Positions 10,164 through 20,458 of a stretch of 64,000 bases of DNA are shown piece after piece; position 1 is the first letter of the stretch; each line of letters begins with the position of its first letter. The stretch comes from a bacterium (lineage in GTDB: Bacteria; Actinomycetota; Acidimicrobiia; Acidimicrobiales; Bin134). The DNA lies in contig JAPPAP010000001.1 of NCBI GenBank assembly GCA_026705465.1, forward strand, positions 62,001 through 126,000, given 5' to 3'. Made by a program: the position numbers and the translations under genes. The notes beneath the pieces are model-generated. The model did no database searches and was not told the origin of the DNA. It saw only the letters and a list, made by a program, of their open reading frames with translations.

Positions 10164-13100
10164 TCAGTGCCAGTCGTGCGATGGCGGCATGGCCACGCCC
10201 GAGTCGATGCTGCGCACGTCGGTGGCCACCACGTTCACAGTCCCGTCCCATCGGGAAACTCGTCCGGTGACCACGATCACTTGGCTGCCCAACTCCCGGC
10301 GGCGGCGGGCGAACAGATCGGAATAGACGATCACCTGGGTGTCGCCGGTCTCGTCTTCGATGGTCACAAAGACGGTGCCGTCACGTCCACGGGGGTGCTG
10401 GCGGGCCACCGGCCAGCCGGCCACGGTGACCATATCGTCTTCTTTTTGAGCCTCCACCTCGGCGGTGGGGAGCACGCCGGGATCGAGGGTCGGCCGGAGG
10501 AACTCCATGAGGTGGCCTCGGGGGTACATCCCCATGGTTCGGTATTCGCCCATCATCTTCTCCCGCTCGGTGAAATCGGCGAGCTGGGGCACCCGGTGGT
10601 CGGTCGACAGCGACAGGGCGGTTTGGCCGGAGCCCGAGGGCCGGTTTTGCAGCCCCGACTCCCACAGCGCCTCCCTTCGGTTCGCGGCAATGGCGTCGAA
10701 CGCCCCGGCCAGCACCAGCGACAACACGGCTTGGTCCTTCAGCCCCGTTCGGCGCACCAAGTCTCCAGCGGTGGTGTAAAGCCCTTGGCGCTGCCGTTCG
10801 GCCACGATGAGCTGGGCCGACTCCGCTCCCACATCCTTGATGAACTGAAGCCCGAGCCGCACCGAGGCGCCTTCGGGTGAGCACGCGGGGCTGCTTTGGT
10901 TGACGCACGGGTTCAGGAACGGCACGCCGAAGCGTCGGGCGTCCTGTTTCAGCGTTTCCATGGGGTAGAAGCCCATCGGCTGGTTGTTCATCAGCGCGGT
11001 GAAGAACTCCACCGGGTGATAGCGCTTCAGCCATGCCGCCTGGTAGGCGGTCACCGCGAAGGCATGGGAGTGCGACTCCGGGAACATGTAGTGGCCGTTG
11101 ATCTTGGCGAAGATCCTCTTGGCCGCCTCTTCGGGGACGCCGTTTTGGCGAGCGCCCTCGGCGAAGCGCTTCCAGTGCAGGGCGATGAGGTGCTCGCTGT
11201 TGGGCCGGGCGAAGGCGCGGCGCACCTCGTCGGCCTCAGACGCGGTCATGCCGGCCACGTCCTCGATGAGCTGCACCACCTGCTCTTGCCACACGATGAT
11301 GCCGTACCCCCGCTCTAGGGCCCGCTTCTCCAGCGGATGGTCGTAGTCCCAGTCAGCATCGTGGCGGTAGCGCTCCACAAACTGGGACACCGCGCTGCCC
11401 TGCACGCCCACGCCGGGGCGGATGAGAGCCACCTGATAGGCGAGGTCGAGGAGGTTGCGGGACTTCAGCCGCTGGGCCATCTTCAGCTGCGCGGGGGATT
11501 GGAGCAAGAACACCCCTTTGCAGAGACCGGCGTTGATCATGTCGTAGACGCCGGGGTCCTCCGGGCTGATCCGGCCCAAGTCGGGCCGGCGGCCCTCCCG
11601 CTCGGCCACGAGGTCGAGGGCCTCGTCGATCTGGTCGAGCACCGGCAGCGACAAGATGTCGATCTTGGCGAAGTCGGCGTCGGCCACGCTGTCTTTGTCC
11701 CAGTCCATGATGTAGCGGCCGTCGGTGGCCCCGGCCCGGATCGGCACCATCTCCGGGATGGGCGAGCTGCTGAGCACCATGCCGCCCACGTGCTGGCCCA
11801 ACCCCCGGGGAGCGCCCATCAGTTGGGGGGCGAGCGCAAGCAGATCCCGCCATCCGGGGGCGTCCACCTTGTCTTTGAACTCCGCCAACTCCATCATCTC
11901 GTGGCGCAGATCGGCGGCGTGGTGGGAGTGCAGGCGTTTCGACAGCAACCCGAGGCGCTCCTGAGGCAGTCCCAGGGCCTTGCCCATGTCTTGGATGATG
12001 CCCTTGACCTTGTAGGTGGTGATGGCCCCGGCTAGCACGGCGTGCTCGGGCCCGAAGTGGGCGTGTACCCGCTCGATCAGCTCGTCGCGCAGCCCCCGGG
12101 GGAAGTCGAGGTCGATGTCGGGCAGTGTGGTCATGTCTTCGGAGATGAACCGCTCCAAGGTGAGGTCCCACTTCAGGGGATCCACATGGCTGATGCCGAT
12201 GAGGTAGCCCACGAGCAGGGCCACCGACGAGCCCCGCCCCCGTCCCGGCGGCCTCTCCTCTATCGGCGTGTCGGGGCCGACCTCGCCCCGCTCCACCATG
12301 ATCTGTTGGCCCAGAAGGGCGATCTGGCGGTAGAGCAGCAGAAACCCGGCCAGGTTGAGCCGCTCGATCAAACCGAACTCCTCGGCTAGACGACACTCCA
12401 CCTCCTCGGTCACGCCGCCGTACCGCCGGACGGCTCCCTCCCGACAGAGCTGTTGCAGGTAGCTCAGAGGCGTGCAGCCGGGGGGCACCGCGGCATCGGG
12501 CAGGGCGTAGCCCAGGTCGGTGCTGAGGTCGAAGCAGCACTGCTCGGCGATGCGGAGGGTGTTGGACACCGCCTCCGGGCACTTGGCGAAGAGCCGTTCC
12601 ATCTCCGCGGCCGGCTTCAGATGCAGATGGTGGTTGGGCCGCAGGTGGGGCAGGGCTTGGTCGATGGTGGTGTTGAGCTTGGCCGCCACCAGCGCCTGCT
12701 GGAGGCGAGCGCGGTCGGGGGTGTGGTAGTGGACGTCGTTGGTGGCCACCACCCGGGCGCCGGAGTCGGCCGCCAGTCTGATCAGCTTGCGGTTGCGGTC
12801 GGTGTCGCCGGCCAGGAAGTTCTGCTGAAGCTCCACGTACACCGAGTTCGGCCCGTACCAGTCGAAGTACTGCTGCAACAGGCCGTGGGCCTCCCCGAAG
12901 CGGTCTTCGGCTGCCAACCGCGCCAGGGGGCCGTCGCGCCCTCCGGTGAGCAGCACCACGCCCTCGCAGTGGTCGGGCAGGTGGGAAGGGTCGAGCTTCG
13001 GTTCCCGGCGGTCGTCGGCGTTGGCCAGGGTGAACAGGCGCGAGATGTTGGAGTACCCGGTCCGGGTCTGGGCCAAAAGAGCGAGCTTCGAGCCGTCGGT

Positions 13101-13307
13101 CAGCGTCAGCTCTCCGCCGGTGATGGGTTGGGTGCCCAGGCTCTTGGCCAGACGGGCGAACTCCAGTGCGCCGCACAGGTTGGTGTCGGTGAGAGCCAAA
13201 GCCGGATAGCCGAACTGCTTGGCTTGGGCCAGCAGCTCGTGGGCATGCGACGCCCCCTCCCCGTAGGAGAAGAAGCTTTTGGCCCGAAGCTCCACCCAGT
13301 TCGCCAT
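10164..13307 (-). CDS. dnaE2: error-prone DNA polymerase III alpha subunit DnaE2 (ImuC)
   Basis: The 1047-residue protein has the DnaE2 layout: an N-terminal PHP domain (WVELRAKSFFSYGEGASH), a polymerase core with the metal-binding motif LPDIDLDFPRG, a helix-hairpin-helix region and a C-terminal OB fold (VTVAGWPVARQHPRGRDGT). It is shorter than replicative DnaE1. It carries out mutagenic translesion synthesis together with ImuB, which recruits it to the beta clamp. The imuB gene lies 54 bp upstream on the same strand and the SRAP gene 56 bp downstream. No recognisable ImuA is present in the window. Confidence 0.95.
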   Translation of the reverse strand: MANWVELRAKSFFSYGEGASHAHELLAQAKQFGYPALALTDTNLCGALEFARLAKSLGTQPITGGELTLTDGSKLALLAQTRTGYSNISRLFTLANADDRREPKLDPSHLPDHCEGVVLLTGGRDGPLARLAAEDRFGEAHGLLQQYFDWYGPNSVYVELQQNFLAGDTDRNRKLIRLAADSGARVVATNDVHYHTPDRARLQQALVAAKLNTTIDQALPHLRPNHHLHLKPAAEMERLFAKCPEAVSNTLRIAEQCCFDLSTDLGYALPDAAVPPGCTPLSYLQQLCREGAVRRYGGVTEEVECRLAEEFGLIERLNLAGFLLLYRQIALLGQQIMVERGEVGPDTPIEERPPGRGRGSSVALLVGYLIGISHVDPLKWDLTLERFISEDMTTLPDIDLDFPRGLRDELIERVHAHFGPEHAVLAGAITTYKVKGIIQDMGKALGLPQERLGLLSKRLHSHHAADLRHEMMELAEFKDKVDAPGWRDLLALAPQLMGAPRGLGQHVGGMVLSSSPIPEMVPIRAGATDGRYIMDWDKDSVADADFAKIDILSLPVLDQIDEALDLVAEREGRRPDLGRISPEDPGVYDMINAGLCKGVFLLQSPAQLKMAQRLKSRNLLDLAYQVALIRPGVGVQGSAVSQFVERYRHDADWDYDHPLEKRALERGYGIIVWQEQVVQLIEDVAGMTASEADEVRRAFARPNSEHLIALHWKRFAEGARQNGVPEEAAKRIFAKINGHYMFPESHSHAFAVTAYQAAWLKRYHPVEFFTALMNNQPMGFYPMETLKQDARRFGVPFLNPCVNQSSPACSPEGASVRLGLQFIKDVGAESAQLIVAERQRQGLYTTAGDLVRRTGLKDQAVLSLVLAGAFDAIAANRREALWESGLQNRPSGSGQTALSLSTDHRVPQLADFTEREKMMGEYRTMGMYPRGHLMEFLRPTLDPGVLPTAEVEAQKEDDMVTVAGWPVARQHPRGRDGTVFVTIEDETGDTQVIVYSDLFARRRRELGSQVIVVTGRVSRWDGTVNVVATDVRSIDSGVAMPPSHDWH

Positions 13308-13361
13308 CAGAAGTCCGTCGTCAGCAGTTCGCCGCTAGTAGTTCCCATAGACAGCTCGCAA

Positions 13362-14810
13362 TCAGGCGCTTTGTCGGTACCAGCGGCGGTCGACGCAGTC
13401 CCGGAATAGGGTGATCAGCCGCCCGTCGCCGGGGTCGACCCGGTAGTAGGAGCGGGCCACCGGCTTGGGGAGCCACCACAGGTCGAATGTCCATCGGTCG
13501 TCGATTCGGGCCACCTTCTTCCAGCGTCGGCCCGCCCGCAGCGAACGCGGCTCGCCCTTTGAGTTCTCGCGCACGTCCACTGGCCGGGGCGTCAGCAGGG
13601 GTCTGATGGTGTCCTGGGCCGACGGGTCGAGGGGCATCTGGAGGAACCGCATCTCCGGCACCGGGTGCCACGGTGCCACGCCAGCGATCCGGTACAGGGC
13701 GTGGTCGCCCCTCATCAGCGGCCGCAGCCGCCGGTCGGCCTCCACGAGCCGCCCGAGGCGGTCGCGTCGCGCGTCCTTCAGCAGTGTCAGCTGGGCGACC
13801 GACTCGCCGGTGAAATCCGACAGGGTGAGGGTCACGTCTTCGACGGGACGGCGCGGCGGGTCGGCCTCCAGCCGGTCTCGGATGATCTCCGAGGCCCTCT
13901 CCCATGTGCCGATGGGCTGTTTGAACCGCACGCTGTGCTCCCACGCCGGCCAGCCGGGCGCCTCGCACAGCAGGTGCGCCGACCCGGCGAGGCGCCCCTT
14001 CGCCTCCGGTCGGGCGAAGGCCCGCAGCAATACGGTGTCCACCGCCATCAACAGGGCCTCGATGGCGGGGTGCAGCGCCATCGAGATGTGCTCGACCACC
14101 GGCTCTTCACACGTCTGGGGAACGACGGGGCTGTCGTCGATGCCGTTACACAGCGACCACGCCCGCAAGCCCTCGAGACCGAACCGGTCGGAGAGCAAGT
14201 GCCCGCTCACCGAGGCGACGGCGCCCATGGTGTGCAGGCCGAAGCGGTGCAGGTCGCCCTTCATGGCGGCCGAGACGGGGAGCAGGTCGATGCTGTGGGG
14301 GGCGAGGAAGGCGCCTGGGTCGTCGCCCACCCCGCAGGCGCCCGGGCCCCGGCGGGTGCGGGCGGCGACGAAAGCGGGGAACTTGGCGTCGGCTGTCCCG
14401 ACGCGGGGGCCCAGAAAGGCGGGGAGCGCGCTCATGAGCGCGGAGACCGCGCCCGATTCGCCCCCGTACAGCCCCTCCAGCCCGTCGAGGCGGACATAGG
14501 CCGTGCCCAGATCGGCCGCCTCCACCCGGTCGCTGACCCCTTGCAGGTCGGCCACCATGCGGCGGAAAGCCCGCCGATAGCAGGGCTCGTCAGCGTCCAG
14601 CACCACAGCACTGGCGTGGTGCGACATGGCCTCTTCCAAGGTCATGCCCTCCCTCACCCCGACCGCGGCGGGGAAGTAGTCGACGACCAGAGTCCTCGCG
14701 GCCGACGGGTCGCCGTCGACGATCAGCACGGGGCTGTCCTCCAAGTGGCGATACCGGCTCATCTCCACCTTCGCCCGCAAATGGGTCGCCAGCACGCACG
14801 CAACCCTCAT
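13362..14810 (-). CDS. imuB: ImuB, Y-family polymerase-like protein
   Basis: The 482-residue protein begins MRVACVLATHLRAKVE and continues with the divergent Y-family polymerase fold used by ImuB, which usually lacks catalytic acidic residues and acts as a clamp-binding adaptor for DnaE2. Family landmarks include YVRLDGLEGLYGG, DLHRFGLHTMGAVA and the C-terminal WWLPKPVARSYYRVD region followed by WYRQSA. I chose ATG 14810; a start nine codons upstream is possible. The downstream gene is dnaE2. I did not find a convincing LexA box in the ~70 bases upstream, although SOS control is usual for these genes. Confidence 0.93.
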   Translation of the reverse strand: MRVACVLATHLRAKVEMSRYRHLEDSPVLIVDGDPSAARTLVVDYFPAAVGVREGMTLEEAMSHHASAVVLDADEPCYRRAFRRMVADLQGVSDRVEAADLGTAYVRLDGLEGLYGGESGAVSALMSALPAFLGPRVGTADAKFPAFVAARTRRGPGACGVGDDPGAFLAPHSIDLLPVSAAMKGDLHRFGLHTMGAVASVSGHLLSDRFGLEGLRAWSLCNGIDDSPVVPQTCEEPVVEHISMALHPAIEALLMAVDTVLLRAFARPEAKGRLAGSAHLLCEAPGWPAWEHSVRFKQPIGTWERASEIIRDRLEADPPRRPVEDVTLTLSDFTGESVAQLTLLKDARRDRLGRLVEADRRLRPLMRGDHALYRIAGVAPWHPVPEMRFLQMPLDPSAQDTIRPLLTPRPVDVRENSKGEPRSLRAGRRWKKVARIDDRWTFDLWWLPKPVARSYYRVDPGDGRLITLFRDCVDRRWYRQSA

Positions 14811-14899
14811 CGGGCACCCGTGCGAAGGCCGCTGCAACTACACAGGACAACCTTATTGACGCCAGTGACACATTCGACTCGGCGTGGTGGATGAGCCGC

Positions 14900-16717: not shown

Positions 16718-17796
16718 CGGAACCGCCAGAACCGGGAGAACAGGAAGGTGGCCGGCAGCCGGGTCCTCACGAACTGGCGGGCTTCTCGTCCCTCCAGCAC
16801 CGTGCCGTCGCGATCCACCATGCTCCACGATGCCCCTGGTGCCACGGTGATGTCGAACCGGGCCATCCAGTCCAGCCACCGCACCCAGCGACTGGGGGTG
16901 ACCAGGGTGCGATCGCGGGTGGAGGGAACCGCCCACAGGGCCAGGGCGCCGATGGCGATCACGCTGAACACCTGCACGTGGGCGCTCACCTCGATGCCCA
17001 CGTGGAAGGCCACCGCCACCCACACCGCGGCCAGGCGGGTGCGTCGGAACCACAGGCCGAAGGCGATGAACAGCTCGGTGGCCACTGCGGCTGGCGAAAG
17101 CACCCAGTGGAATGCCCGAGTGGTCAGCACGTCCAAGATGGGATCGGCGAGCGTGTCGCCCAGGGCGTCGCGCACGTCGTTCTGGTAGCGGACGGCGCGG
17201 TCGTGCAGCACCCGGCCTCCCACCCAGTCGGGGTCGATCAGTTTGGAGAACCCCGAAGCGAAATACACGGCGGCGGCCTCGAACCGAAGCAGCCACATCG
17301 GCCACACCAAGCCCCGGTCGTCAGAAGGCGGGCGGCGAAGGGCATCCAACGACAGCGCCCGGCCGTTGTCGCACAGGGCCACCCCGGCCAACAGGATGAC
17401 CAGAAAGGCCCGATTGTGGTGGAAGTGGGTCTGCGACAAGAAGAGGTTGTAGGCCACCACCGCGAAGGCGGCCCAGGCGGCCGTGCGCGACCACCAGCCC
17501 ACGGTCATCAGCACTGCGGCGGCCACCCCGATCCACAGCAGCGCCATATACAGCCCGGCTGGCGCGTTGGGATACCACGACCACCACGGCTGCTGGAAGT
17601 GGTCGTGGTAGGTGGTTCCGTTCAACGCGTCGGCCAGAAACGGCCGCAGGTGCCAGATCACCGACGGACCCAGCACGATCCGCAGCACCGCCACCCCCCG
17701 CACGCTGGCCGGCTGGTCGATTACCTCGCTCAGCCACTGCTGGCACCGGACCCGCCAGTCGGTGGCGGCCGCATTCGAAGAAGTGATGGCCGTCAT
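16714..17796 (-). CDS. HTTM-domain membrane protein (vitamin K carboxylase-related)
   Basis: The 360-residue protein shows the HTTM pattern of the vitamin-K-dependent gamma-carboxylase superfamily: several membrane segments with the conserved QTHFHHNRAFLVIL and WLLRFEAAAVYFASGFSKL motifs, then FHVGIEVSAHVQVFS. Bacterial members are mostly uncharacterised. Both ends overlap neighbours by 4 bp (ATGA upstream, GTGA downstream), so it sits in the middle of a translationally coupled operon with a thioredoxin-fold protein, a single-pass protein and a toroid-like protein. Confidence 0.88.
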   Translation of the reverse strand: MTAITSSNAAATDWRVRCQQWLSEVIDQPASVRGVAVLRIVLGPSVIWHLRPFLADALNGTTYHDHFQQPWWSWYPNAPAGLYMALLWIGVAAAVLMTVGWWSRTAAWAAFAVVAYNLFLSQTHFHHNRAFLVILLAGVALCDNGRALSLDALRRPPSDDRGLVWPMWLLRFEAAAVYFASGFSKLIDPDWVGGRVLHDRAVRYQNDVRDALGDTLADPILDVLTTRAFHWVLSPAAVATELFIAFGLWFRRTRLAAVWVAVAFHVGIEVSAHVQVFSVIAIGALALWAVPSTRDRTLVTPSRWVRWLDWMARFDITVAPGASWSMVDRDGTVLEGREARQFVRTRLPATFLFSRFWRFR

Positions 17797-18287
17797 GGGT
17801 CGCCCAAATCCCGCTCATGGCTGCGGATCACCGTGACATAGGGGCCGCGGGCGTTGCGGTAGTAGGTGACAGTGGCCTCCCAGTAGCGGGTTTCGGTATC
17901 GGCGGGGGTGTTCCCGGCCACCCAGTCCAGGGCGTTGTCCAAAAAATCCAGCATTGCGTCCACGCCGGAGAAGGCGTGGCGCTGATGCCAGGGAGACCGC
18001 AGAGGCCCCCAATCGATCAGCTCGTTCCAGTCGTAGCCCTCCCAGCGGCCGTTGGGCACCGGCACCTGCTGGCCGTCGTCCAGCACCCGCACCAACTCCA
18101 CCGCATAGGTGCTGGACTCGTTGAACGGCTGGAAGGCGAAGTAGTTGTGCGGATCCCGGTAGCCGTTGGCCACCAGCGCAAGTTGAGCGACGACTACTGC
18201 TGCGGCAAACCACCGTGCTCCCCGCCGGCGCCAGAGGGGGCGGGGCTTGGCCGCCGCCTGTGAGACAGCGTCAGCCGCCGTTGCCAT
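17793..18287 (-). CDS. single-pass membrane protein of unknown function
   Basis: The 164-residue protein has a basic N-terminus (PRPLWRRRGARW) and one membrane segment (FAAAVVVAQLALVANGY). A soluble, aromatic-rich domain follows with WNELIDWGPLRSPWHQRHAF. I recognise no family. Its start overlaps the end of the thioredoxin-fold gene by 17 bp and its stop overlaps the HTTM start by 4 bp. Such small proteins are often seen beside HTTM genes, but a role cannot be assigned. Confidence 0.78.
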   Translation of the reverse strand: MATAADAVSQAAAKPRPLWRRRGARWFAAAVVVAQLALVANGYRDPHNYFAFQPFNESSTYAVELVRVLDDGQQVPVPNGRWEGYDWNELIDWGPLRSPWHQRHAFSGVDAMLDFLDNALDWVAGNTPADTETRYWEATVTYYRNARGPYVTVIRSHERDLGDP

Positions 18288-18912
18288 ACCTCTGCTTGTA
18301 GGCCTCCAGGTCGGGGGGCAGGCGGTCGCGTTTCAGCTCGGCGAAGTTGTCGTAGGCGGTCAGCCAGCGCGTGTGGCGCCACAGCTCCACCGCCTCCTCG
18401 GTCGACTCCGGCGGGTTGCTGATCACCGGGCCGAACAGCGCCGGGCCTCGGCCTCCATCCAGGCGGATGGTGGGCACGCCGAAGCTGCGGGTCTCATCGC
18501 ACAAGATGGTGTGCTCAGACTTCAGCGTCTCCCAGGTGCTGTCGTCGGCTAGGGCGTCGTCCACCAGGCTGGCGTCGAATCCGGCATCGACCGCGGCGGC
18601 CTTGATGGTGTCGATCTCATTCACCGACTCCACCAGGTCGAATACCCGGTGGCCGATGGCCTGGTAGTAGGCGCCGATGCCGTCGTTGCCGCCCACCTCG
18701 CGGGCCTTCACCGCGGTGCGCAGCGAGGCCACGCCCACGCCCCGGTCGGGGTCGAACTCTTCCATGGGCTTGTCCCAGTTGACGATGGCCAACGAGAACA
18801 GGCCCCAGGTGACGCTCACCTCACCGGCGTCTTCGATCTGACGAACCCAACGGGCCGTCTGCCAGCACCATGGTCAAAGCGGGTCGAAGTAGAAGGTGAT
18901 GGGCTCACTCAT
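18271..18912 (-). CDS. probable selenoprotein: DsbA-fold, Rv2466c-like nitroreductase/reductase
   Basis: Read from ATG 18912, the first residues are MSEPITFYFDPL. An in-frame TGA (18876-18874) follows, then PWCWQTARWVRQIEDAG, and the frame stays open to 18271 (213 residues). The closest family I know is the mycothiol-dependent nitroreductase Rv2466c, whose N-terminus reads FDPLCPWCW. The TGA therefore replaces the first, nucleophilic Cys of CPWC, giving U-P-W-C, the classic selenocysteine position. The rest matches the family, including FGVPTIRLDG (cis-Pro loop), ALFGPVISNPP and FAELKRDRLPP. A hairpin compatible with a bacterial SECIS lies 22 nt after the TGA. Other genes here stop at TGA, so global recoding is not implied. 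A conventional call starting at 18819 would lose the active site. Confidence 0.85.
18838..18876 (-). promoter_or_regulatory. candidate bacterial SECIS element after in-frame TGA
   Basis: In the mRNA, after UGA (18876-18874), 22 nt lead to a GUU apical loop (18851-18849). The upper stem is CCC (18854-18852) with GGG (18848-18846), then a G against UU internal bulge, then GACG (18859-18856) with CGUC (18843-18840). A G at the first loop position and a UGA-to-loop distance of 22 nt fit the known bSECIS pattern. The pairing was done by eye; no folding energy was computed. Confidence 0.6.
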
Positions 18913-20054: not shown

Positions 20055-20291
20055 ATGTCCAGGGTCTGCCAGGTGACCGGTCGCCGCCCATCGTTCGGCA
20101 ATAACGTGTCCCACTCGCACCGCAAGACGCGGCGCCGGTGGAACCCGAACGTCCACAAGCACCGCTTTTGGGTGCCGTCGGAGAAGCGGTGGATCACTCT
20201 CACCGTGTCGGCCAAGGGCCTCAAGACCATCAACAAGCACGGCATCGACAAGGTGGTGGCCCAGATGCGGGCCCGCGGAGAGAAGGTGTAG
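20055..20291 (+). CDS. rpmB: 50S ribosomal protein L28
   Basis: The 78-residue protein ([36 protein letters not shown]) is L28. It carries a single cysteine, so it lacks the CxxC pairs of zinc-binding L28 and is the zinc-independent form. The start at 20055 matches family length; an in-frame start nine codons earlier is less likely. rpmG follows after 5 bp. Pairing of zinc-free L28 and L33 genes is typical and in some actinobacteria is under Zur control, though no operator is evident here. Confidence 0.95.
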
Positions 20292-20296
20292 CTGCC

Positions 20297-20458
20297 ATGG
20301 CCAGCGACAAGCGACCCATCATCAAGCTGAAGTCCACCGCGGGAACCGGCTACACCTACGTGACCACCAAGAACCGGATCAACGACCGCGAGCGGATCGA
20401 GCTGAAGAAGTACGACCCGGTGGCCCGCAAGCATGTGGTGTTCAAGGAGGAGCGGTAG
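20297..20458 (+). CDS. rpmG: 50S ribosomal protein L33 (cysteine-free)
   Basis: The 53-residue protein ([33 protein letters not shown]) is L33 of the large ribosomal subunit. It has no cysteine and therefore does not bind zinc. It lies 5 bp after rpmB and is followed 41 bp later by the HD-domain gene. Confidence 0.95.

Follow-up and report, generated by a model that had tools for sequence, protein, structure and literature searches.

The gene at 18271..18912 (minus strand) of the DNA analysed here, a stretch of 64,000 nucleotides from a member of the Acidimicrobiales that is referred to below as the window, has an in-frame TGA as its thirteenth codon (18874..18876), and the question that this locus raises is whether this codon ends translation, reflects an error or the decay of a gene, or is decoded as selenocysteine (Sec). 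Read on the minus strand from 18912 to 18271, the frame runs MSEPITFYFDPL-TGA-PWCWQTARWVRQ and reaches its stop codon, also a TGA, after 213 residues. When translated across the internal TGA the window protein scores 97.1 bits against the Pfam profile PF22234 (Rv2466c-like; cut-off 27) and 42.3 bits against PF01323 (DSBA; cut-off 25.6), in agreement with a preliminary description of the locus which had claimed a complete DsbA-fold protein across the TGA. The best-known member of the family is a tuberculosis redox enzyme. The C-P-W/F-C active site of PF22234, which corresponds to a UxxC motif in terms of PF01323, is present as U-P-W-C with predicted Sec in place of the nucleophilic Cys, while codon 16 (TGC, 18865..18867) specifies the conserved resolving Cys. 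Rv2466c and its Mycobacterium leprae homologue are the nearest solved structures by sequence, and the chains of Rv2466c are also the best structural match of an AlphaFold model (pLDDT 88.5) computed from the window protein together with homologous sequences. The TGA aligns with Cys19, which PMC8280269 gives as the nucleophile of the Rv2466c motif C19-P-W-C22. When ORFs are called mechanically, the gene begins only at GTG 18819 and has 182 amino acids, so that the active site is lost to annotation as had been anticipated; pipelines starting at such a GTG would truncate genes of this kind in the same manner.

Among the 198 genomes of the order that were searched, the closest orthologues carry the in-frame TGA; they come from four more genomes in the window's genus and from several other families. 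A scan of public genome contigs yielded another 16 loci from this subfamily, 87-98% identical, including loci from Acidimicrobiia MAGs and Candidatus Poriferisocius, all of them with TGA; these 16 are partly the same records as the matches of the genome search, and when counted without redundancy the TGA is kept in 18 of 18 distinct subfamily sequences of the window's genus. Where the Sec forms have U-PWC, other close homologues have C-PWC (TGC or TGT), which bears out the assignment of the TGA at 18876-18874 to the nucleophilic Cys of CPWC, and Cys is also found in more distant homologues from Nitriliruptorales, Euzebyaceae, Dormiibacterota and Mycobacterium. In the alignment with Cys-containing homologues that had been proposed as a check, position 13 alternates TGA with Cys codons only. 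On a tree of 75 sequences (30 non-redundant homologues with TGA and 45 with TGC or TGT), for which the Sec/Cys position was masked, there are at least six switches between Sec and Cys, and well-supported branches force three of them. Across codons 1-15 of 17 sequences from the genus the pairwise difference is 0.04 at the amino acid level as compared to 0.29 at synonymous positions, a pattern which indicates that this part of the gene is under purifying selection. Sec forms (loci L192, L194, L195 and L196) were also observed in distant subfamilies of PF22234, as UPWC in genomes G149, G084 and G027 and as UPFA, a motif that holds no resolving Cys, in G093. The window's genome has a paralogue of its own (L022 1465-2121, contig C30) that belongs to the same group as the G093 proteins and reads CPFA, again with no resolving Cys; it adjoins a cysteine-desulfurase-like gene.

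The genome from which the window derives (3.11 Mb in 40 contigs, 95.7% complete) encodes SelA and SelB side by side, as well as SelD, and all three exceed the curated NCBIfam cut-offs (406, 296 and 362 bits as compared to cut-offs of 268, 242 and 125, respectively). The selD gene (L019 1387-2544, contig C19) has an in-frame TGA of its own at codon 49, in the active-site position of the motif SHGAGU, and is predicted to be a second selenoprotein gene of this genome, of a well-known kind. With regard to selC, the Rfam model for tRNA-Sec gave no match above its cut-off in the window's genome, and a search by anticodon pattern returned chance matches only. The apparent absence of selC was ruled out by synteny: contig C3 is syntenic with a contig of a relative and starts at position 2704 of the latter, within its tRNA-Sec gene (2663-2756), and nucleotides 1-53 of C3 (L106 1-53) are 100% identical to nucleotides 42-94 of that gene. 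A standard scan thus wrongly calls selC missing, as the end of the contig cuts the gene; only its 3' 53 nucleotides are present in this assembly, the 5' half lying outside it, while the gene is intact in relatives of the genus. In two of these, G176 and G150, tRNA-Sec lies approximately 16-17 kb upstream of selAB, and the fragment occupies the same position (approximately 16 kb) in the window's genome. Every other genome with a UGA form from this clade has a tRNA-Sec scoring 64-69 bits. SelB exceeds its cut-off in all 16 genomes with a Sec form as compared to 108 of the 198 in the order (hypergeometric p 3.6e-5, not corrected for phylogeny). The search for selA, selB, selC and selD that had been recommended therefore located all four, selC in truncated form.

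Taken as a true stop, the TGA would mark either a pseudogene or the upstream limit of a truncated protein that starts at GTG 18819 and has no active site. The sequence GGTGAGG directly upstream of that GTG speaks for such a start, but among 17 sequences the twelve codons preceding the TGA, together with UPWC, are under strong purifying selection, and the TGA itself persists both within the genus and in other families, with Cys codons as its only alternatives; this makes termination at codon 13 highly improbable. The conservation of the TGA, combined with the retention of the amino acids around it, excludes sequencing error, pseudogene and true stop as the main reading, and an erroneous base call hiding TGC or TGT at 18876-18874 is ruled out since the TGA occurs in many independent genomes. 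UGA has been reassigned in some bacteria, and the codon might accordingly be read as Trp or Gly, or be passed by near-cognate readthrough, with no involvement of selenium. Such recoding is just as improbable: both the gene itself and 7 out of 8 neighbouring ORFs checked use UGA as their ordinary stop, so that the codon is not reassigned, the residue that aligns in homologues is Cys and never Trp or Gly, and the genome holds the full Sec machinery. The reading as a probable new selenoprotein has therefore withstood both objections named in advance, absence of the machinery and a sequencing error, and on the evidence of the sequences compared here the gene almost certainly encodes a selenoprotein of the Rv2466c/Mrx2 reductase type with Sec13 inserted by decoding of UGA.

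A candidate bSECIS-like hairpin was located at 18840..18859 (minus strand), consisting of GACGGCCC, the loop GUU (18851-18849) and GGG-UU-CGUC. As had been claimed, the loop G18851-T18850-T18849 lies exactly 22 nucleotides past the TGA and the stems pair CCC with GGG and GACG with CGUC; the stem of 8 bp with one bulge (-9.9 kcal/mol), the GUU loop and the spacing of 22 are inside the limits set out in Fig. 2 of PMC13188914. The stability of this hairpin is ordinary for such a GC-rich sequence, as it does not go beyond that of synonymous shuffles preserving the protein, of which approximately 30% formed an equal or better hairpin at the +22 spacing (p ~0.3) and 80% did so across all spacings (p ~0.8; range 0.1-0.9). 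Nor is the synonymous divergence of the 48 nucleotides following the UGA extreme, 29 of 198 segments compared being equally low. Codon choice is the better evidence for the hairpin. The loop and the 3' arm are formed by CGT21, GTT23 and CGT24, none of which varies in any of the 17 genus sequences compared, although in the rest of these genes CGT and GTT account for just 2-3% of Arg and Val codons. Four invariant rare codons were found among 202, and three of them are among the five codons of the hairpin that were eligible (p 2.9e-5 with a usage table that leaves neighbouring codons out and a rarity threshold of our own choosing; p 0.13 when the tested codons are included in the table). The region had been fixed by the earlier hairpin claim, so that the test is not post hoc in its placement. 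Two diverged Sec lineages share this GUU loop at +22, carried by a continuous stem of 8 bp (GACGGCCC/GGGUCGUC and GACGGCUC/GGGCCGUC). The Sec homologues L037, L041 and L042 have no hairpin at +22, which is therefore not universal, and would need another form.

The Sec gene is preceded on the same strand by a gene for a luciferase-like flavin monooxygenase (PF00296; 18936..19985), which ends 23 nucleotides upstream of it. It is followed by an ORF of 164 amino acids (17793..18287, minus strand) that overlaps its end, is conserved in the genus and matches no Pfam family, and, further downstream in the same run, by a gene for an HTTM domain protein (PF05090; 16714..17796, minus strand). The order of these four genes is conserved within the genus and not outside it. 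Of the preliminary view that the gene leads an operon with HTTM and toroid-like proteins, the HTTM protein is confirmed; the gene is not the first of the operon, given the luciferase-like gene 23 nucleotides upstream on the same strand, and the toroid-like protein has no Pfam match. Elsewhere in the window, 20138-20458 (plus strand) matches ribosomal protein L33, and the G056-type family has, directly upstream of the Sec gene, a conserved stretch that matches this region. At 10164-14837 (minus strand) a DNA polymerase III alpha-type gene (1047 amino acids) adjoins an IMS-family (ImuB-like) gene, an arrangement that looks like a DnaE2/ImuB mutasome cassette.

With regard to function, Rv2466c and its Corynebacterium relatives are described in PMC8280269 (citing Rosado 2017) and PMC7052010 as mycothiol-dependent reductases that have no DsbA oxidase activity, with the first Cys carrying out the attack and the second the resolution. 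Cys16, the resolving residue, is retained in the window protein. The window's genome encodes a mycothione reductase (Mtr; 637 bits, NCBIfam cut-off 501) as well as an MshC-like protein (L199 1498-2667, contig C30) that scores 440 bits for MshC, 45 below the cut-off of 485, and 351 bits for CysS. This MshC-like protein may be a mycothiol ligase that has diverged, or else a CysS paralogue of an unusual kind. The likeness to Rv2466c, together with Cys16, Mtr and the MshC-like protein, makes a Sec-dependent reductase of the Mrx2 type the best reading, and by analogy the most likely role of the window protein is that of a selenol/thiol reductase linked to mycothiol. It may instead be a selenoprotein with no link to mycothiol, acting as an oxidase, an isomerase or a selenol peroxidase, perhaps together with the adjacent flavin enzyme. 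The conservation of the luciferase-like neighbour in the genus would fit such a role; set against this, both sequence and model lie nearest to Rv2466c, for which PMC8280269 (after Rosado 2017) reports mycothiol dependence and no DsbA oxidase activity, and a mycothione reductase is encoded. We consider a role of this sort unlikely, albeit far less so than termination or recoding at codon 13.

For the Mrx2-type reductase the following scheme may be put forward. SelB and tRNA-Sec would decode the UGA of codon 13 as selenocysteine, with help from the hairpin just downstream of it, and the product would be a DsbA-fold reductase whose active site reads Sec13-Pro-Trp-Cys16. If the enzyme works like Rv2466c, Sec13 would attack a substrate disulfide or a mycothiol mixed disulfide, Cys16 would resolve the Sec13 adduct as a selenenylsulfide, and the enzyme would be recycled by the mycothiol/mycothione reductase/NADPH system. 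Selenium use would thereby be linked to mycothiol redox metabolism in Acidimicrobiia, including the MAGs of Candidatus Poriferisocius. A wider proposal, for which we would give somewhat less than an even chance, is that Sec is recurrent across the whole Rv2466c/Mrx2 family of the order: at least two distinct subfamilies have UPWC and a third has UPFA, the Sec machinery accompanies every such form, and several lineages share the GUU hairpin at +22. If true, this would amount to a selenium-mycothiol redox branch, and Sec may be ancestral in some lineages with Cys the derived state.

Our literature search found no paper joining a selenoprotein with Rv2466c, and none joining selenoproteins and selenocysteine with Acidimicrobiia. 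DsbA-like selenoproteins with UxxC form an established family that has been predicted computationally (PMC1088965, PMC2398784, PMC13188914). They share with the window protein a DsbA-like fold and the UxxC motif; however, PF01323/COG2761 defines the entries from the Sargasso Sea, GOS and the 2026 catalogue, which are families from marine metagenomes, and no entry among them bears the name Rv2466c-like. The 2026 catalogue lists 119 families and subfamilies and names no Rv2466c-like form (PMC13188914), its DsbA-like selenoprotein form 1 (PF01323, UxxC) being represented by NIP15863.1. The window protein would thus be a new selenoprotein of the Rv2466c branch, where we found none described. It has the PF01323 domain and the UxxC motif of form 1, to which it may belong. 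SelD of the same genome is an unrelated protein which likewise has UGA at the position of its active-site Cys and serves as an internal positive control. The nearest known system is Rv2466c/Mrx2 itself (PF22234; PDB 4ZIL, 4NXI and 5XUR), which has the family, the fold, the active-site position, the resolving Cys and the FGPV and ELKR motifs in common with the window protein, whereas the latter has Sec in place of the nucleophilic Cys19, is approximately 31% identical and falls in a distinct clade of the tree. Predicted selenoproteins would thereby gain an enzyme group whose Cys-containing relatives, Rv2466c among them, have been solved and studied biochemically, so that the advantage of Sec over Cys could be tested in matched pairs.
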